64,000 bases of DNA from Lysobacter sp. (GTDB lineage: Bacteria > Pseudomonadota > Gammaproteobacteria > Xanthomonadales > Xanthomonadaceae). Below, in pieces: positions 11,809-20,641 of the stretch. Below the pieces are notes generated by a model that was given only the letters and a program-made list of their open reading frames with translations, searched no databases and was not told the DNA's origin. Each line of letters opens with the position of its first letter. The first letter of the stretch is position 1. The stretch is from the NCBI GenBank assembly GCA_011526085.1, contig WYBC01000022.1:1-64000 (forward strand), read 5' to 3'. The translations under genes were made by a program, and so were the position numbers.

Positions 11809-14800
11809 TCAATCTACAACCTCTATTCGTACTCGTGCTCCATTCGGCAGGCCTCGACACTGAGCGCCGATACATGCGCCAGCACCACGATTGTCACTTG
11901 GCTTGATGTGCCTCACCGAAGCCCCGCGCCCTCCCTCCTGGAACATAGCAGGAGGATACTCATCGCGATCATAACCGCGCCTCGTTTGCACTCCTCTCAA
12001 CGACTCTCTCCTGTTGGCTGCTGAATTCGCTCTATCAATCGTTAGCTTCCTCGGCTTACCGGATGCAACAGCATCTTCGATGTGCTTCGCCGATTCTGGA
12101 TACTTCTTCCTGCTGATACTAACTCTTGGACCACACGAAGGAGGATTCTTTTTGACTGCTGCAATCTGCGGTCTTGTTCCTTGCGCAAGTCTCGCGATCT
12201 TTATCCGAGCGTTTCTTATCGCAGTCCTTGCACCCAGCCGCGCAACCAAACGAGGCAATACATACCGGACTCCGATCTCAAAGATCACTCTTTGTACATA
12301 CAGCCCTTCCGGATCGCCGTACACCAGCGGCGAGCCATCGGCATAGCCGTAGGTGCTCATGCCGCCGGCCAGACCGATCGGGTCGGACTCGACGTAGCGG
12401 CCGGTGGTCGGATCGTAGTCGCGGAAGTAGTTGTAATGGAAGCCGGTGACGCTGTCGAACTGCTGGCCCGGCAGGCGCAGGTCGAGGTTGAAGACGAGGC
12501 CGTCGCCGTCGGGATCTTCCTCGGGATGATCGCGGCCGAAGGCTTCGCCCAGCGGGTCCCAGCGCCAGACCGCGACGTTGCGCTGCGGGTCGATCACCGC
12601 GCGCGGGCTGCCCAGCGCATCGGCTTCGATGTAGTGCAGCGTCTGGCCAGGGTTGCTGCCGGTCAGCAGGCCCACCGGGAGATCATCCAGCCAGATCGCC
12701 AATTGCACCGGCTGGCCGCTGCCGTTGAAGTCGCCCAGCCAGCGGCCGTCGCTGTCGTACAGCGTGTAGGTATCGACGCCGTAGATGGTGCGACGCACGC
12801 GCTCGCCCAGGGCGTTGTAGGCATAGGTCGCCAGTACGGTATCGATCGGCGGGTCGGTGCCGTTGACGATCGGCGCACCGGTCCAGACCGCGCTGAGGCG
12901 GTTGGCATCGTTGTAGCCGAACCGGCGACGCGGGCCGCCCGGAGCGTTGGGGTCGCCCTGTTGCGTGAGGTTGCCGGCATCGTCGTATGCGCGGGGCTCG
13001 CCGCCCACATCCAGCAGGCGATGGCTGTCGCTGGCGTAGCCGTAGTTCGCGGTCTGGAATGCGTAGGTCGGCGCACCGCCGCCGGGACCGCCGCCGGCGT
13101 CGGTCATCACCCATTGGCCCGCCGTCAGACGGTTGCCGGTGCGGTCGTAGCCGTACCGCTCCAGCACGACGGCGTTGGCGTCCTTCGCCTCGGTCAGACG
13201 ATCCTGGCCGTCGTAGCCGTAGGTTTGAACCGTTGCGTCGGGCGAGCGGCCGCTGCGCAACTGCGCGAGGTTGCCGACCGCATCGAAGCCATAGCCCAGC
13301 GCGATGCCGGGGCCCGCGCCGTTCTCCGGGCCGTCCTCCACCGCCAGCGGCCGGCCGTTCCGGTCGAGCGTGCGGCGCAGTTCGAGATCGTTGCCGAACA
13401 CCCAGCGCGCGACCGGGCCGAAGGGATGGTAGGTCGCGTTCTTCAACAGCACCTGCCGCGCGCCGCCGGTGGTCACCCCGATCTCGGCGACGCGGCCCTG
13501 CGCATCGTAGCGATAGTCCACCTCGGTACTGCCGGGGTAGATCATCTTCTGCAACCGGCCATCCGCCTGATACACCCAGCGCAGGGTGAAGGTGCGGTTG
13601 CCGGTGCGCTGCACCTTGCGGACGAGATCGCCGAAGCGGTTGTAGCAGAACACGGTGCTGCCGCTGGCGTCGGCGATTCGGCCCAGGCGCCCGGCGGCGT
13701 ACTGTTCGCCGGCCGCGCAGTCGCCCATGGCGGTGTCGTAGGCGAACGGCTCATCCGGAACCGCCGCGGCGTAGTCCACCATTTTCAGGCGATTCAATGC
13801 GTCGTAGCGGAACTGCGTGGACTTGCCGTTCGCATCGATCTGGCCGGTGGTGTTGCCGGCGGCATCGTGGGTGTAGCCCGTCAGACCCGTGTCCGGACTG
13901 TCGAGTTCGACCAGTTCGCCGAAACCGTTGTAGCGGTAGTCGGTGTGCAACCCCTTCGGGTCGGTGATGCGGGTGATGTTGTCCAGCGCATCGTAGCGAT
14001 ACAGCGTCTCGGCCGATTCGGCGGTGCTGGTCGCGTTGCGCAGATTGCGGACGAGACGACCGAGCGGGTCGTAGTCGCGATCGTCGCGGCGCGTGAGCGG
14101 ATCGGTGGCGGTCTTGAGCCGCCCCTCCGCGTCGTAGCCGAACACGGTGCTGCGGTTGTCGGCATCGACGACCGATTGCAGGCGTCCCAGCGTGTCGAAG
14201 GTGCGCGAGACGGTCTGCAACAGCGCGCCACCGGCATCGCGGATGTCTTCGCGCTCGTGCTCGCCGGCCGCGTTCAGCGTGTAGACCATCCGATGACCGT
14301 CGCGATCGGTGATCGACGTGAGCCGCTGGATGTCGTCGTAACCGAAGGTGACGAACACGCCGTCCGGCTGGACGACGCGATGCACCAGTCCGTCGGCGGT
14401 GTACTCGATCCGCTCGATGCGATCGTCGGTCTCGCCGGCATCGTTGGTGCCGCGCATCTTGCGCGCGACCAGCCACCCGCGCGGGTCGTATTCGAAATCG
14501 GTGACGATGCCGGCGACATCGCGGATGGATCGGATCCGGCCGGCGCCGTCGTAGGCCAGCAGTTCCGTGATCTGGCCCTTGGCGTCGACGATCCGCCACA
14601 GATCGCCCTTGCGCCAGAGGCAGGTCGCGGGCGCCGTCGCGCAACCGGACGCATCGGCATCGCGATATTCGTAGCGGGTGACATCGGCGACATCGAGAGC
14701 GTTGTCGCGGGCGCCATCGACGCTCAGTACCAGTCCGACAAGGGGACAGACCCCCACGGCGACATCGGCCGCTTCGCAATAGGCGATCGTCGTGGTGCGG

Positions 14801-16833
14801 GTCGCACCGGTCGTCGGATCGACTTCGGTCGTCGTGAGCGGCTGACCCCGGCCGTTGTAGGTCCACGTCGTCTGCGCCTTGAGCGCACCGGCGGCATCGC
14901 GTGTCCGCTGTTCGGTGACGCGATGGGTCGCCGGATCGCGGACGGTCTCCGTGCGCCGCTGTTGCGGCGTGCCCACCGCTTCGATCACCGCGGACAGATA
15001 GGCATCGGTGGCGTGGTACTCGTAGTCCGTATGCTCGCCGAGCCGGTTCGTCTGGCGCTGCAGTCGACCCTGCGCATCGAAGACCTGCGCGTCGCTTGCG
15101 GTCTGACCGGCGGTCTTCACGTCGGTGATGCGTCGATACAGACCGGGCGCGATCGTGTAGATCCGCTGCTCGCCGGTGGCGGCCGCCACCGTGGCCTGCG
15201 TCTCGCTGTCGTAAACGACGGTGGTGACGTTGTTCGGCGTGCCGAAGGCCCGGCTCTCGATCACGCGGCCGCGGTCGTCGTAACGGAACGAGGCGAATCG
15301 ACGGCCGGTCTCGGCGGTGATGCCGGTCAGGTGATGGCGCTGGCTGGGATCGCCGATCAGCCCGGATTCGGCGTAGTGATACCGCTTGATGCGGCCGTTG
15401 CCGTAGTCGGCGGAAATCAGATTGCGGTCGGCATCGTAACCGTAGGCGACGGATGCGCCATCCGGCAGTACGGCGCGCGTCATCAGCTTGGCGGCGTTGT
15501 ACTCGAATCGCAGCACGCGCCCCTGTCCATCGGTCGCGGTGGCGAGCAGGCCGTTGCGATAGCCCAAGACCACGTCGAGACGCGGATCGTCGGGGTGACG
15601 GATCGCCGTCAGGATCCTGTTGACGTCGAATTCCCGGATTTCGCCGTCCGGCGAACGCAGGCGCCAGCGGACCGCACCGGACGCGATGTATTCGAGCACG
15701 TGATCGGTCGAATTGACGCCACGCAGACGATCGGTCGCGAACGGCGCATAGCCTTCGTACGCGCCGGTCTCGTCCACGATCGCGGCGACACTGCTGCCGT
15801 TGGTGCCGGTCAGACGATCGCTGAAGGTATGGGTCCAGCCTTCCGCGAACCCGATGTTGTTCCGGAACTGGCGCAGCGAATGGTAGTAACGCGTGAAGGT
15901 GTGGCCTGCGAACTCGAAGTCCGGTTCGGCCCTGACCTTCTCGCCCGTGGCCGGATAGACGGGGTAGTCGCTGGCCTCGCAGCTCGCGCACTGCTGTATC
16001 GGACCGCTGATGCGGACGGACCCGCGGTTGTATGCGCAGAGGATCGGGAGCGTGAGATCGCCGATGCCATCGTTGGGCACGATGTCGCTCAACCGGTCGT
16101 ACCGCGACGGACAGGTGAAGGAAGCTTCCTGCCGGATCATGAAATGGAACGCGCCGGCGCTGCCGCTTTCGCAGCTGAACTGGGTCATGTAGCGGCGATG
16201 GCCGTAATTCACGACCCCGTGCGTGGCCTGCGAAATGTTCTGCATGCCATCCACCGCCTTGTAGGGGGAGACACGCAGATCGGTCGCCAGACTCGCACCG
16301 CCGAAGGTGCAGGTCGGATAGAGCGCGCGATATTTGTCGACGGCCCTGGCGACCAGATCGCCCTCGTCGGCGCACAGATAGGGCCGATTCGGATCGCTGC
16401 CTGGGGCGCAGCCATGACCACCGGAAATGAGGTTGCCATCGGTGCCGACCGCATCGACGGTGAATCCGCCCGTGTACAGGGTGCCCGGCTGATCCTTCAC
16501 GCGATACACGTACTCGGCGCGCTCCTGGGCCGGAATGACGTTCGTCTCCGCCTGTTCCAGCAGGGTCGCGACCGGGGCATGCACGGAATCCGCACGCATC
16601 GCCTGTTCGGCCTTGTCGAGCGTATTCGCGCACTGCTGCGTCGCGCCCTGATAGCAGAACTGCGGCTCGGGCCCGGTCGCGACCTGGGCCACCGCCGCTG
16701 CAGCGATCAGCAAACCCATGAACGAGAGCGCGCGCATCGGTCGATTGCGCCACCCTCTCCCCAGCAGATCGATCGCCCTGCTTTTCATCGCATCGCTCTT
16801 CATGGTGTCTTCACCGTGTTTTGACTCGTCCAC
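11809..16833 (-). CDS. Secreted Rhs/YD-repeat polymorphic toxin with NucA/NucB-type nuclease tip
   Basis: 1674 residues. A GTG start at 16833 has GAGGAG eight bases upstream; ATGs 30 and 45 bases later are alternatives. A signal-type hydrophobic segment (ALSFMGLLIAAAAVAQVA) ends near residue 55. A Cys-containing N-terminal region precedes a DUF6531-like start (YPVYPATGEK, about 290), then many YD repeats (e.g. GYDAEGRL), and an Rhs core around 1440-1511 (RDYDPTTGRYVESDPIGL, ending DPEGL). The variable tip (1512-1674) has the NucA/NucB signature: KYPESAKHI, DRDEYPPAMFQEGG, DNRGAGACIG. It is a predicted DNase toxin used against neighbouring cells. No PAAR or VgrG part is present, so export is probably Sec-dependent and WapA-like. 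The tip is visibly more AT-rich than the repeats. Confidence 0.93.
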   Translation of the reverse strand: MDESKHGEDTMKSDAMKSRAIDLLGRGWRNRPMRALSFMGLLIAAAAVAQVATGPEPQFCYQGATQQCANTLDKAEQAMRADSVHAPVATLLEQAETNVIPAQERAEYVYRVKDQPGTLYTGGFTVDAVGTDGNLISGGHGCAPGSDPNRPYLCADEGDLVARAVDKYRALYPTCTFGGASLATDLRVSPYKAVDGMQNISQATHGVVNYGHRRYMTQFSCESGSAGAFHFMIRQEASFTCPSRYDRLSDIVPNDGIGDLTLPILCAYNRGSVRISGPIQQCASCEASDYPVYPATGEKVRAEPDFEFAGHTFTRYYHSLRQFRNNIGFAEGWTHTFSDRLTGTNGSSVAAIVDETGAYEGYAPFATDRLRGVNSTDHVLEYIASGAVRWRLRSPDGEIREFDVNRILTAIRHPDDPRLDVVLGYRNGLLATATDGQGRVLRFEYNAAKLMTRAVLPDGASVAYGYDADRNLISADYGNGRIKRYHYAESGLIGDPSQRHHLTGITAETGRRFASFRYDDRGRVIESRAFGTPNNVTTVVYDSETQATVAAATGEQRIYTIAPGLYRRITDVKTAGQTASDAQVFDAQGRLQRQTNRLGEHTDYEYHATDAYLSAVIEAVGTPQQRRTETVRDPATHRVTEQRTRDAAGALKAQTTWTYNGRGQPLTTTEVDPTTGATRTTTIAYCEAADVAVGVCPLVGLVLSVDGARDNALDVADVTRYEYRDADASGCATAPATCLWRKGDLWRIVDAKGQITELLAYDGAGRIRSIRDVAGIVTDFEYDPRGWLVARKMRGTNDAGETDDRIERIEYTADGLVHRVVQPDGVFVTFGYDDIQRLTSITDRDGHRMVYTLNAAGEHEREDIRDAGGALLQTVSRTFDTLGRLQSVVDADNRSTVFGYDAEGRLKTATDPLTRRDDRDYDPLGRLVRNLRNATSTAESAETLYRYDALDNITRITDPKGLHTDYRYNGFGELVELDSPDTGLTGYTHDAAGNTTGQIDANGKSTQFRYDALNRLKMVDYAAAVPDEPFAYDTAMGDCAAGEQYAAGRLGRIADASGSTVFCYNRFGDLVRKVQRTGNRTFTLRWVYQADGRLQKMIYPGSTEVDYRYDAQGRVAEIGVTTGGARQVLLKNATYHPFGPVARWVFGNDLELRRTLDRNGRPLAVEDGPENGAGPGIALGYGFDAVGNLAQLRSGRSPDATVQTYGYDGQDRLTEAKDANAVVLERYGYDRTGNRLTAGQWVMTDAGGGPGGGAPTYAFQTANYGYASDSHRLLDVGGEPRAYDDAGNLTQQGDPNAPGGPRRRFGYNDANRLSAVWTGAPIVNGTDPPIDTVLATYAYNALGERVRRTIYGVDTYTLYDSDGRWLGDFNGSGQPVQLAIWLDDLPVGLLTGSNPGQTLHYIEADALGSPRAVIDPQRNVAVWRWDPLGEAFGRDHPEEDPDGDGLVFNLDLRLPGQQFDSVTGFHYNYFRDYDPTTGRYVESDPIGLAGGMSTYGYADGSPLVYGDPEGLYVQRVIFEIGVRYVLPRLVARLGARTAIRNARIKIARLAQGTRPQIAAVKKNPPSCGPRVSISRKKYPESAKHIEDAVASGKPRKLTIDRANSAANRRESLRGVQTRRGYDRDEYPPAMFQEGGRGASVRHIKPSDNRGAGACIGAQCRGLPNGARVRIEVVD

Positions 16834-17688: not shown

Positions 17689-18006
17689 ATGTCGTCTTCC
17701 CTGTCGCCCGCCGGGCGTCTGTTCGCCATCGCGGCCTTCGCCGAAGGCCTGACCTGGGCCGGGCTGCTGGTCGGGATGCTGTTGAAGTACGGCACGCAGA
17801 CCACCGACCTCGGGGTGTGGGTGTTCGGGCGCCTGCACGGCGCGGCGTTCCTGTTCTACGTGATCGTGACGCTGTTGTCGGCCATGCGTCTGCGCTGGCC
17901 CTGGTGGGCATGGACCCTGGCCCTGCTGGCGGCCGTGCCGCCGCTGGTGACGGTGCCGCTGGAAATGTGGTTCCGGCGGATCGGTTTGCTGGGGTACGGA
18001 ACCTGA
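17689..18006 (+). CDS. DUF3817 family small membrane protein
   Basis: 105 residues with three or four hydrophobic segments. The family pattern is visible: FAEGLTWAGLLVGMLLKY near the N-terminus, then GRLHGAAFLFYVIVTLL, WWAWTLALLAAVPPL and a short basic end (WFRRIGL). DUF3817 proteins are inner-membrane proteins of unknown function. The ATG at 17689 has GGAG about ten bases upstream. The last 20 codons recur as a non-coding fragment at 19542-19603. Confidence 0.85.
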   Translation: MSSSLSPAGRLFAIAAFAEGLTWAGLLVGMLLKYGTQTTDLGVWVFGRLHGAAFLFYVIVTLLSAMRLRWPWWAWTLALLAAVPPLVTVPLEMWFRRIGLLGYGT

Positions 18007-18153
18007 CCGTAGCGCAGACCGAAGAGATTGAAGTCGAACTCACGACGATGTTCGTCCAGGGCGACGGGCCGGGCAACGCCGGACTCGACACGATCGCGGT
18101 CATCCTGCCGATTTTCCGTGAGCCCTGCGTGTCTGCATTGCGAGCGCATCGGC

Positions 18154-18182
18154 TTGACAATGGCGTCTCCCGAAAGGAGGAT
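18154..18182 (+). promoter_or_regulatory. Possible promoter of the Cys-rich peptide gene
   Basis: A perfect -35 hexamer TTGACA (18154-18159) is followed after 17 bases by GAGGAT (18177-18182), which matches the -10 consensus at only three positions. Transcription would begin at the hairpin at 18189-18207. The placement is suggestive, but the -10 is weak. Confidence 0.35.
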
Positions 18183-18188
18183 CGGGGG

Positions 18189-18207
18189 CCGGTCCGCAAC
18201 GGACCGG
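18189..18207 (+). promoter_or_regulatory. Perfect hairpin in the leader of the peptide gene
   Basis: Arms ccggtccg (18189-18196) and cggaccgg (18200-18207) are exactly complementary around a CAA loop. It lies 33 bases upstream of the peptide ATG and just past the predicted promoter. It could be an operator for a dimeric regulator or an mRNA-stabilising 5' hairpin. No U-tract follows, so it is not an intrinsic terminator. Confidence 0.55.
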
Positions 18208-18240
18208 ACGACGATACAGGTCAACCGTAGGGAGACGACG

Positions 18241-18393
18241 ATGAGCGATATACAGGACACGAAGCGGGAGTTCCGCCTGAGCGATCTCGATGCGCAGTTG
18301 CAGGCGCTGCTTCCGGACAAGGAAGCGTTCCTGCGCGCGTTCTATTACTGCTGCGAGTGCGTAGGCAATCCGGACTGCCCGAGCCAGAGTTGA
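18241..18393 (+). CDS. 50-residue Cys-rich peptide, candidate RiPP precursor
   Basis: The start is well supported: AGGGAG lies six bases before the ATG. The first 34 residues form a charged, helical, leader-like region (FRLSDLDAQLQALLP then DKEAFLRAF); the last 16 are YYCCECVGNPDCPSQS with four Cys (37, 38, 40, 46). A charged leader followed by a short Cys/Gly/Pro core is the usual layout of ribosomally made, modified peptides. It has no signal peptide. It is framed by two perfect hairpins (18189-18207 and 18421-18447) and followed, 63 bases later, by an LpxL-like acyltransferase gene. I do not recognise a named family; a metal-binding small protein is the main alternative. Confidence 0.7.
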   Translation: MSDIQDTKREFRLSDLDAQLQALLPDKEAFLRAFYYCCECVGNPDCPSQS

Positions 18394-18420
18394 GCCGGCG
18401 AACGGCGCGAAAACAGTGCT

Positions 18421-18447
18421 CCGGGGCCGGATGAACGCCGGCCCCGG
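18421..18447 (+). terminator. GC hairpin between peptide and acyltransferase genes
   Basis: Arms ccggggccgg (18421-18430) and ccggccccgg (18438-18447) pair perfectly around a seven-base loop. It begins 27 bases after the peptide stop. With no U-tract it would act as a partial terminator or 3' stabiliser, giving more peptide message than enzyme message, a common arrangement for precursor peptides. Confidence 0.6.
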
Positions 18448-18456
18448 GACATCCCG

Positions 18457-19536
18457 ATGAATGGATCGCGAAGCCCCGCGCGCATGAACGCCTTCGCATT
18501 CTCGCCGCAGGCCGAAGCCGTCATCGCGCGGATCGATGCCGAACTGGCGACGCTCGATGTCGACGCGAACGAAACGCACCCGCCGGAACGGGATCACGCG
18601 TTCGCCAACGCCTTCCACATCGCGGACGCCAATCTGCGGCACTTTCTTCCCGATCTGGACGGCGCCGGTTGCCGTCGTCTGATCCGCGAAATCCTGTTCC
18701 ACCAGCGCATGAGCACGCTGGACCAGAACGATTTCGACCTGCTGCGCGTCACCGGCGTCGACAGCCGCTGCGGCGACCTGCCGTGGTCGAACGGCACGCC
18801 GCGCATCTTCTGCACCTATCACCTCGGTTCCTACAAGTTCCTGTTCCATGCGCTCGCCGCGCGCGGCGTCGACTGCATGCTGTTCGTCTCCGGACGCACG
18901 CTGATGAAACAGGGAGAGTCGTTCCTGCAGGCCGCGCAGCGCGCGCGGGAGACCCGCGGCTGGACCGGAAGGCTCGAGATCGTCGATGCGGAGAACCGCA
19001 ACAGCGTATTGGTCGGCATGCGGGCGCTGCGGCGCGGCAAGGCGCTGGTGCTGTACGCCGACGGCAACGCCGGCACCGGCGAAGGCGACGAGCGCTTGCG
19101 CCCGGTGTCATTCTTCGGCCGCACGCTCGCGGTGCGTTCCGGAATCGCCTATCTCTCGCATGCCGGAGGCGCGCCGGTGGTGCCGACGACCTGCCGACGT
19201 CGCGCCGACGGCAGTCTGGACCTGGTGTTCCACGAGGCGATCGCGCCCGATGGCTGCGAGCGCACGGCCTATATCGATGCGACCCTGCAGACGATCCACG
19301 ACCGGCTCGCGTCGATCCTGCGCACCTCGCCGGGGCAATGGGAGGGCTGGCTGTACGCGCATCGCGCGCTTGCCTGCACGGCGTTCGACGGCGGCGCAGG
19401 CGCGCCGCTCGCGATGGCCGAGGCGATGCAGCGCGCGCTCGACCGGGAACGATACGCACTGCTGCGCTTTCCCGGATTGCGGTTGTTGCTCGACAAGCGC
19501 GCCTTCACCTGCACGGTGATCGAAGCTGCCGGATGA
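18457..19536 (+). CDS. LpxL/HtrB-like acyltransferase family protein
   Basis: 359 residues from ATG 18457 (GGGA seven bases upstream); ATG 18484 is an alternative. The fold is recognisable from the second half: RIFCTYHLGSYKF as the catalytic His block, NSVLVGMRALRRGKALVLYA, then FFGRTLAVRSGIAYLSHAGG and APVVPTTCRR, the order seen in lipid A/lysophospholipid acyltransferases. In the His block the residue five after His, normally acidic, is Lys. There is no N-terminal membrane anchor, unlike LpxL, so it is probably soluble. The first 100 residues are not recognised. Adjacency to a tiny Cys-rich peptide gene suggests it may acylate that peptide; this is inference. Confidence 0.75.
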   Translation: MNGSRSPARMNAFAFSPQAEAVIARIDAELATLDVDANETHPPERDHAFANAFHIADANLRHFLPDLDGAGCRRLIREILFHQRMSTLDQNDFDLLRVTGVDSRCGDLPWSNGTPRIFCTYHLGSYKFLFHALAARGVDCMLFVSGRTLMKQGESFLQAAQRARETRGWTGRLEIVDAENRNSVLVGMRALRRGKALVLYADGNAGTGEGDERLRPVSFFGRTLAVRSGIAYLSHAGGAPVVPTTCRRRADGSLDLVFHEAIAPDGCERTAYIDATLQTIHDRLASILRTSPGQWEGWLYAHRALACTAFDGGAGAPLAMAEAMQRALDRERYALLRFPGLRLLLDKRAFTCTVIEAAG

Positions 19537-19541
19537 CGGCA

Positions 19542-19603
19542 GCCTTGCCGCCGCCGGTGACGGTGCCGCTGGAAATGCGGTTCCGGCGCATCGACTTGCC
19601 GGG
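19542..19603 (+). pseudogene. Fragment duplicated from the 3' end of the DUF3817 gene
   Basis: These 62 bases match 17932-17993 at 55 positions by direct comparison. Read in the same frame they give LPPPVTVPLEMRFRRIDL versus VPPLVTVPLEMWFRRIGL in the intact gene. The copy lacks the rest of the gene. The two copies bracket the peptide-acyltransferase segment, so they may record a duplication or insertion event. Confidence 0.7.
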
Positions 19604-19742: not shown

Positions 19743-20036
19743 ATGAAAACGTGGGTCTACTTTCTGCTGTGCGAGAACGACGCGCTGTACACGGGTACGG
19801 CGATCGACCCCCTGAGCAGGTTCAGGGCCCACTGCGCGGGGCGCGGGGCGCGGTTCACGAAAATGCGAAAGCCCATCCGGTTGCTCGGCGCATTCGTCTT
19901 CGAGAGCCGCGGCGAGGCGCTGTCGAACGAGTATCGGTTCAAGCGCCTGCCCGTTCTCGAAAAGCGCCGGCTCGCAGCGTTGGCCTCCGAGGACCCTGCC
20001 TGGCTCGCTTATCTCATGCAACACGAAACGGGATGA
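19743..20036 (+). CDS. GIY-YIG domain protein (UPF0213/YhbQ-like)
   Basis: 97 residues containing essentially only a GIY-YIG nuclease-type domain: VYFLLCENDALYTGTAIDP stands for the GIY...YIG elements, followed by RFRAHCAGRGARFTKMRKPI and a Glu/Asn helix (ALSNEYRFKRL). Small stand-alone proteins of this type are widespread, with poorly defined roles in DNA repair or nucleic acid cleavage. The ATG at 19743 was chosen by homology; the frame is open upstream through the DUF3817 remnant without a ribosome site. Confidence 0.88.
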   Translation: MKTWVYFLLCENDALYTGTAIDPLSRFRAHCAGRGARFTKMRKPIRLLGAFVFESRGEALSNEYRFKRLPVLEKRRLAALASEDPAWLAYLMQHETG

Positions 20037-20157: not shown

Positions 20158-20526
20158 TCAGACGACCCACCGCCATGCGTACCAGATCACCATCACGTTG
20201 AAGATGAAGCTGACGCCGATGAGGAAATTGTCGTAGGCGCCCTTGTAGGGCAGGCTGATGATGTTGAAGGGGATCACGATGCCGGCCACGATGATGTTCG
20301 TCCAGCGGGCGGCGGGATACGGCAGTATCAGACTCAGCACGATCATGAAGATGGGGACCAGCATGATCGCCGCGACGATCAACCAGATTTTCTCGGTGCC
20401 CGGCGTTTTTTCGTTGAGCATGCCCGGCGTGACGTGGCCCGCCAGAATCCGCAGCACGTCGCCCCAGAGATAGGTCAGCATCGTCGCGACCCACAGCCCC
20501 GAAAGCACAATCCTTGTCTCCAGCAT
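20158..20526 (-). CDS. Small integral membrane protein, DUF6326-like
   Basis: 122 residues with four predicted membrane helices, e.g. VLSGLWVATMLTYLWGDVL, LIVAAIMLVPIFMIVLSLIL, WTNIIVAGIVIPFNII and FLIGVSFIFNVMVIWYAW. The start ATG 20526 has GGGAGG nine bases upstream. The pattern recalls DUF6326, of unknown function. It is followed after 115 bases on the same strand by nothing recognised, and the YHS protein gene upstream is a separate unit. Confidence 0.8.
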   Translation of the reverse strand: MLETRIVLSGLWVATMLTYLWGDVLRILAGHVTPGMLNEKTPGTEKIWLIVAAIMLVPIFMIVLSLILPYPAARWTNIIVAGIVIPFNIISLPYKGAYDNFLIGVSFIFNVMVIWYAWRWVV

Positions 20527-20641
20527 CGTTCGCCTCCCTCCCCGAAGCCCGCGAGTTTACACCAGAGCCGAACGGGGCCGGATGCGTCGGGGGATGGCAA
20601 GGCGCTCGACGCCTCGGTCGATACGCCTTGCGGCGGCGGCG

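Follow-up and report, generated by a model that had tools for sequence, protein, structure and literature searches.

The locus described here lies in a 64,000-nucleotide stretch of contig WYBC01000022.1 of Lysobacter sp. (assembly GCA_011526085.1), the whole of which is called the window. On its forward strand, the gene for a 50-residue peptide precedes a gene encoding an LpxL-like acyltransferase-like protein, here termed AT. The following features were assigned to the locus and its borders:

17928 to 17993, + strand: left copy of a direct repeat, 66 nt, at the 3′ end of the DUF3817 gene
18154 to 18159, + strand: TTGACA, a possible but weak -35 element for which a scan gave no matching -10
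18189 to 18207, + strand: hairpin 1, 8-bp stem and 3-nt CAA loop, 5′ of the peptide gene
18229 to 18234, + strand: AGGGAG ribosome-binding site
18241 to 18393, + strand: candidate precursor peptide gene, 50 aa, from ATG 18241 to TGA
18268 to 18300, + strand: leader motif EFRLSDLDAQL (EFRLTELEERL in genome G531)
18346 to 18378, + strand: core motif YCCECVGNPDC (YCCECVGRPMC in G531)
18421 to 18447, + strand: hairpin 2, 10-bp stem and 7-nt loop, between the peptide gene and the AT gene
18457 to 19536, + strand: AT, candidate maturase of the LpxL acyltransferase type, 359 aa (Pfam PF03279 and structure model), in which HX4K replaces HX4(D/E)
19538 to 19603, + strand: right copy of the direct repeat, 66 nt, 88% identical (E 8.9e-17), with its first base 2 nt downstream of the AT stop codon

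The two-gene locus and its insert

The hairpins and the short elements were read from the sequence, and the peptide gene was recognized as an ORF with a homologue beside the AT gene of G531. An earlier note on this DNA had described an AGGGAG followed by ATG 18241, a 50-residue Cys-rich ORF and two perfect hairpins framing it, and all of these are present as claimed. Both stems are perfect, and compared with dinucleotide shuffles the region 18154-18240 folds with -38.1 kcal/mol and a z-score of -3.54, the region 18391-18460 with a z-score of -2.92. A stable structure in the 75 nt after the stop codon was found for 9 of 10 precursor genes folded. The TTGACA pointed out in the earlier note is also there, but its role as a promoter is weak: a scan of 17990-18520 revealed neither a sigma-70-like promoter nor a T-tailed terminator, hairpin 2 lacking a U tract, so that the lone TTGACA means little. 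The peptide has no match in Pfam. By eye, its 50 residues include no lipoprotein signal peptide, lipobox or hydrophobic signal, and the leader is charged. Neither a protease nor an exporter lies beside the pair, which agrees with the earlier description of a locus without an adjacent transporter or protease and leaves the precursor and AT as its sole members in the window.

The 66-nt repeat copies bracket the precursor gene and the AT gene. The flanking segments 17702-17993 and 20171-20565 are 2177 bp apart in the window and 184 bp apart in G001, a genome of the same genus and the one comparison available, as other genomes of the genus gave no usable alignment here. A GIY-YIG ORF (19743-20036; PF01541, 43.3 bits) directly follows the repeat and belongs to the same insert. 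Because of the alignment gap in G001 and the bracketing repeat, the pair and the GIY-YIG gene either came in as a block or were lost as a block in G001. A plasmid-borne origin was rejected, since no plasmid match was obtained for AT of the window or of the locus G1328, and so was an anti-phage system, for which PADLOC gave nothing for four proteins. On the minus strand, the region is adjoined by an ORF of 1674 aa (11809-16833) with RHS/YD-type repeats recognized by eye.

Loss of the HX4(D/E) acid in the AT family

AT matches the Pfam family Lip_A_acyltrans (PF03279) with 28.8 bits against a cut-off of 22.3, and no GNAT match was found for it in Pfam. The structure model (pLDDT 77.3, pTM 0.79) resembles PatA (E 5.1e-11) and LpxM (E 3.8e-10), and a profile search of the sequences of solved structures returned no sensible match. 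As modelled, AT is thus a member of the LpxL/PatA fold class, in line with the lipid A acyltransferase fold proposed earlier for the gene next to the peptide.

Relatives were collected from genome samples that overlap. In the genus sample (11 genomes), AT matches its own genome and, weakly, G004. In the family sample (297 genomes), 22 genomes match at E 1e-3, the own genome alone exceeding 40 bits. The nearest relative was found in the order sample (398 genomes), where AT of G531 is 45% identical over nearly the full length (254.9 bits) and weaker relatives occur in G506, G330, G429, G410, G498 and G393. A profile search added G495 and confirmed others in the family of G531 (6/202), in whose own genus one of eight genomes has an AT relative. 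The class sample yielded the own genome only (1/369) and the phylum sample two of 398, the own genome and G1328. Bacteroidota contributed 15 loci, found with a two-sequence alignment: two of Ferruginibacter, 12 of Spirosoma type and one of Crocinitomicaceae. A scan with a single AT had revealed no relative among 60 pattern matches. Altogether, the AT family comprises 26 loci in the lineage of the window and in Bacteroidota, found by AT similarity alone and not by the peptide; seven of them (G004, G330, G393, G410, G429, G495, G498) had first been controls or weak matches and were counted as family once a precursor and an M50 protein were seen. In view of the few matches across the genus to phylum samples, the family is rare and patchy. 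G004, from the genus of the window itself, carries a locus of the second clade described below (L063, 8650-11701) with AT, a precursor with an RCNGRCD core and an M50 protein.

At the acid position of HX4(D/E), the 26 family members have arginine (24), lysine (one, the window, with HLGSYK) or tryptophan (one, G506), and the acid is therefore absent from all of them. Every one of the 26 retains the histidine of LpxL (H122) as well as D202. Of the 21 control proteins, which are canonical-side relatives from the family sample, 19 have glutamate at the acid position and keep HX4E and DQ; the two controls without HX4E (L017, L025) sit on long branches and may not be canonical LpxL. The title of PDB entry 5knk names E127 of LpxM as a catalytic residue. 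The C-terminal motif of AT is QWEGW, compared with QY(Q/L)-W in LpxL, LpxM and PatA, and its conservation among the loci L064 to L078 is partly given by construction, since the retrieval of these loci relied on the patterns PGQWEGW and [HD][AP]F[AS]NAFH.

In a tree of 47 proteins, a branch with support 97/95 parts the 26 members from the 21 controls. Within the family, clade B is firm (100/98) and clade A is not (75/80), and joins involving the long branches (G506, L077, G1328 and two controls) may be false. The view that AT is a plain orphan LpxL was rejected, as HX4E and DQ are found in 19 of the 21 canonical-side relatives and an ORF with the leader and Cys in none of these 21 loci.

Precursor peptides and companion genes across the family

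By reading, a small Cys-containing ORF belongs to the gene set of all 26 loci, which speaks against the earlier concern that the acyltransferase might occur broadly without the peptide. The precursor of G531 (MNTSSAISAITSDVAEFRLTELEERLEMTAMSAATESRYCCECVGRPMCDSET) is located upstream of its AT gene and has in common with the window peptide the leader EFRL-x-(D/E)-L and the core YCCECVGxPxC. The two peptides reach a Smith-Waterman score of 85 against 45 for the best of 2000 shuffles; the cores alone score 68 against 45, and the leaders alone 37 against 36 for the best shuffle, a thin margin. Cys residues and leader are thus conserved between the window and its closest relative, as the earlier note had asked. 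In the family sample, the peptide search was confident for the own genome only, with no homologue in the 296 other genomes and a best other E of 0.02. No significant similarity was obtained between the window peptide and the precursors of G506, whose score was equalled by 189 of 2000 shuffles, or G1328, with 756 such shuffles of 2000. The precursor of G531 resembles that of G506 significantly (0/2000) and that of G1328 nearly so (14/2000), so that the window peptide is linked to the distant precursors through G531 only.

A leader motif of the type x-E-L-E-x-R-(L/V/I)-E recurs in several other precursors. Those of Ferruginibacter (LTIEELEAKL...SCG) have a single Cys, the one of G506 reads ESRLEM...QCCTVNGGC, and that of L077, with RCNNRCNG, lies before an arginase gene. 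G1328 has two precursors ending in RCC-I, located 3′ of AT. In a second clade (G498, G330, G393, G429, G410, G495, G004) the precursors lie between AT and an M50 gene and are SITELEQRVEFSCCGGGG-, LDDLEDRIEFGLCGGG- and IELEDRLELADRCNGRCN-like, with four of them in G393. Core lengths vary widely, and in most precursors Cys is placed well inside the C-terminus.

The 12 Spirosoma-type loci carry precursors of 52-65 aa with CC in the core, in one to three tandem copies directly before AT (one copy is also readable from an earlier ATG). Seven pairs gave a pN/pS of 0.11 (70.8 synonymous and 26.2 non-synonymous differences over 249.8 and 872.2 sites), and judged by this ratio the Spirosoma-type precursors are under purifying selection. 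A leader expression followed by a later Cys, which was written after the peptides had been seen, matched 13 of the 26 members, none of the 21 control LpxL loci and none of the 26 opposite strands. The bare CC criterion matched 23/26 members, 6/26 opposite strands and 10/21 controls, and because of these controls CC alone proves nothing. A mechanical filter requiring a ribosome-binding site was overly stringent, with 5 and 8 of the 26 members and 0/21 controls recovered. Precursors of the Spirosoma type are not matched by the leader expression, and the argument for them comes from their position, their copy number and the selection on them.

The M50 proteins with HExGH, present in 10 of the 26 loci, are the companions of AT in several relatives. 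For four of them, the best NCBIfam match is the daptide protease (131.9, 107.2, 114.9 and 91.9 bits), all below the cut-off of 300. The AlphaFold2 model of the M50 protein of G531 (pLDDT 77.5) has an N-terminus of four strands and three helices. Its best Foldseek match is SpoIVFB (E 0.012), followed by PqqD (E 0.66, probability 0.80), ThcOx (0.60, 0.75) and TbiB1 (1.5, 0.54), the latter three being RiPP leader-binding folds. Although E-values of 0.6 to 3.5 make for a weak RRE match, an RRE-like N-terminal domain is suggested by this model. In the window's own genome, no relative of this M50 protein was obtained at E 1e-3, and the best match to the daptide-protease model reached only 21.6 bits; an empty result of this kind has little weight.

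Radical SAM proteins were found in G506 and G410 by Pfam and in G495 by eye, and arginases (PF00491) in L077 and G1328. The genes of G1328 form a row on a single strand that comprises M50, arginase, AT, glutaredoxin, two precursors, HlyD, an ABC ATPase, a MacB-type permease, a FabF-like ketosynthase, MaoC, ACP, TauD and SDR; a PPTase gene is not contiguous with it, being located beyond a gene of the opposite strand. These fatty-acid genes, present in one of the 26 loci, are the best evidence pointing to an acyl-ACP donor. The precursor row of G1328 (L096 and L098) includes a TauD-type dioxygenase along with the small fatty-acid pathway, and the acyl chain may be hydroxylated.

In the fetched flanks of the 12 Spirosoma-type loci, the pair is accompanied by no further conserved maturase and by no gene that seems dedicated to it, and the two-gene layout of the window is the same as theirs. 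The suggestion of the earlier note that further parts are encoded elsewhere is compatible with relatives that have an M50 protein, radical SAM enzyme, arginase or exporter. In the window's own genome, no protein for leader removal or export turned up, which is a weak negative. Two observations concern regulators. In a Ferruginibacter locus (L064, 9037-10904), a protein with a His_kinase domain directly follows AT, then a response-regulator-like ORF recognized by eye; sensing of the product is possible. In L066 (6578-7582), a LytTR-domain protein is encoded divergently from precursor and AT, and the cluster to which it belongs is represented in 12 of the loci compared.

Proposed peptide acylation and comparison with known systems

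With the pairing in 26 of 26 loci and a leader and core in common with the closest relative, the pair of the window is very probably a RiPP-like system, and the minimal pair proposed in the earlier note is supported. For catalysis, acyl donor, acceptor residue, processing and export, and with them for the biological role, we infer the following scheme. The 50-aa gene would encode a precursor with the charged leader EFRLSDLDAQL and the Cys-rich core YCCECVGNPDC, which AT would recognize. AT would most likely use acyl-ACP (or acyl-CoA) as the donor and transfer its fatty acyl group to the core, with the conserved histidine as the base. The missing acid would suit a nucleophile that is easily deprotonated. 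Examples are the thiol of a Cys, an N-terminal Cys (S then N) and, in loci with an arginase, ornithine. The hairpin after the precursor gene could hold the precursor mRNA in excess over the AT mRNA. In relatives, the M50 membrane protease would bind and cut the leader by way of its RRE-like N-terminal domain, and in the case of the window removal of the leader and export would be carried out by proteins encoded elsewhere. That the AT family acylates the peptide is the likely mechanism predicted from these data. As a whole, a minimal RiPP-type locus with a core acylated by AT is the best explanation and has a reasonable probability of being correct.

The catalytic step is the point at which another reading has to be weighed. 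AT could be a pseudo-acyltransferase whose part is to bind the leader or to accompany the peptide, with modification left to other enzymes; the loss of the acid in all 26 members may mean the loss of acyl transfer, given the catalytic role named for E127 of LpxM in 5knk, and other maturases occur in many loci. However, all members keep H122 and D202, the 12 Spirosoma-type loci offer no other conserved maturase that could take over, and acyl-ACP genes stand next to AT of G1328, which makes this reading unlikely.

The M50 relatives in 10 of 26 loci allow a further reading, in which the peptide serves as scaffold or carrier, much as in pearlins. A lipid would be built on it or transferred to it by AT, the M50 protease would free a small molecule, and the final product would not be the peptide. 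Such a role has precedents in the M50 proteases TglG and TmoG, by which scaffold peptides are cut so that modified C-terminal residues come free (PMC10885120, available part). This is improbable here, as no peptide aminoacyl-tRNA ligase was noticed when the loci were read (without a model) and both the varying core lengths and the internal position of Cys in most precursors argue against it. There is about as little to recommend the view that the pair has decayed and is what is left, without function, of a larger cluster resembling the one in G531 or G506. It would explain the pair's position in an insert with no protease beside it, but both ORFs are intact and have conserved motifs and a ribosome-binding site, and 12 Spirosoma-type loci have the two-gene layout on its own as a stable arrangement. 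It is hardly credible that the small ORF encodes a regulatory leader peptide through which, via the hairpins, translation of a lipid-modifying AT is controlled: strong hairpins do lie on either side of the window ORF and its Cys codons could sense the Cys supply, but precursors occur in one to three tandem copies and 3′ of AT in G1328 and the second clade, their amino acid sequence is conserved, and RiPP proteases and radical SAM enzymes stand alongside.

Acylation of the core by AT can be compared with several known systems. AT has the fold and Pfam family of LpxL, LpxM and PatA and keeps the equivalents of H and D202, but it differs from them in the missing HX4(D/E) acid, the QWEGW motif, its separate place in the tree (97/95) and the peptide gene alongside. 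Selidamides such as phaeornamide are RiPPs acylated by a dedicated GNAT acyltransferase after an arginase has made ornithine; RiPP acylation is called very rare there, and GNAT is the acyltransferase fold given (PMC9505594, available part). Arginase and acyltransferase are likewise paired in G1328 and L077, but the maturase here has an LpxL/PatA-like instead of a GNAT fold, and neither the NHLP-type precursor nor the lanthionine synthetase of selidamides was seen in the window. Moreover, selidamide peptide arginases belong to pfam12640 (PMC10028609, available part), whereas those found here belong to PF00491. A PF00491 peptide arginase acts together with a radical SAM enzyme in the maturation of enteropeptins, for which the available part of the same source mentions no acyltransferase (PMC10028609). 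PF00491 arginases are shared by two loci of the AT family, but the window contains neither an arginase nor a radical SAM enzyme.

Among M50 proteases, EpeP matures an epipeptide (PMC10885120, available part). The M50 proteins of the relatives score best with NF041824 and NF058609 of the epipeptide/daptide group (YydH/LiaK, EpeP, daptide HExxH), but remain below the curated cut-offs (92-132 vs. 300 and 43-56 vs. 225), and the window has no M50 protein. DAG-RiPPs (chryseobasin-like) are lipidated via the lipoprotein pathway with the involvement of Cys and are found partly in Bacteroidota including Spirosoma (PMC12636315, available part). They have a lipoprotein signal peptide and an MNIO enzyme, whereas the leader in the window is charged and no MNIO enzyme was noticed. 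Among the papers listed in searches of the open-licence literature, no LpxL-type RiPP maturase was found, and the word acyltransferase does not occur in the available text of PMC12703449. Lipidated RiPPs are already known, but none with the fold of AT in the literature searched.

The pair probably represents a family of fatty-acylated peptides of ribosomal origin that is so far undescribed. More tentatively, and as parts of a single claim, it could define a new class of lipidated RiPPs, in which a maturase of the LpxL/PatA fold, its acid traded for a basic residue, acylates the core from acyl-ACP, probably at Cys (or ornithine), and which spans the lineage of the window and Bacteroidota, from two-gene pairs to clusters that encode a small fatty-acid pathway of their own. 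If this is true, a second, unrelated fold would have been recruited for the acylation of peptides, and there would be more routes to gene-encoded lipopeptides. The lipid A annotation would then become a handle for genome mining, by looking for H-x-x-x-x-R acyltransferases beside a small Cys-containing ORF, and a housekeeping annotation can in this way hide RiPP maturases.
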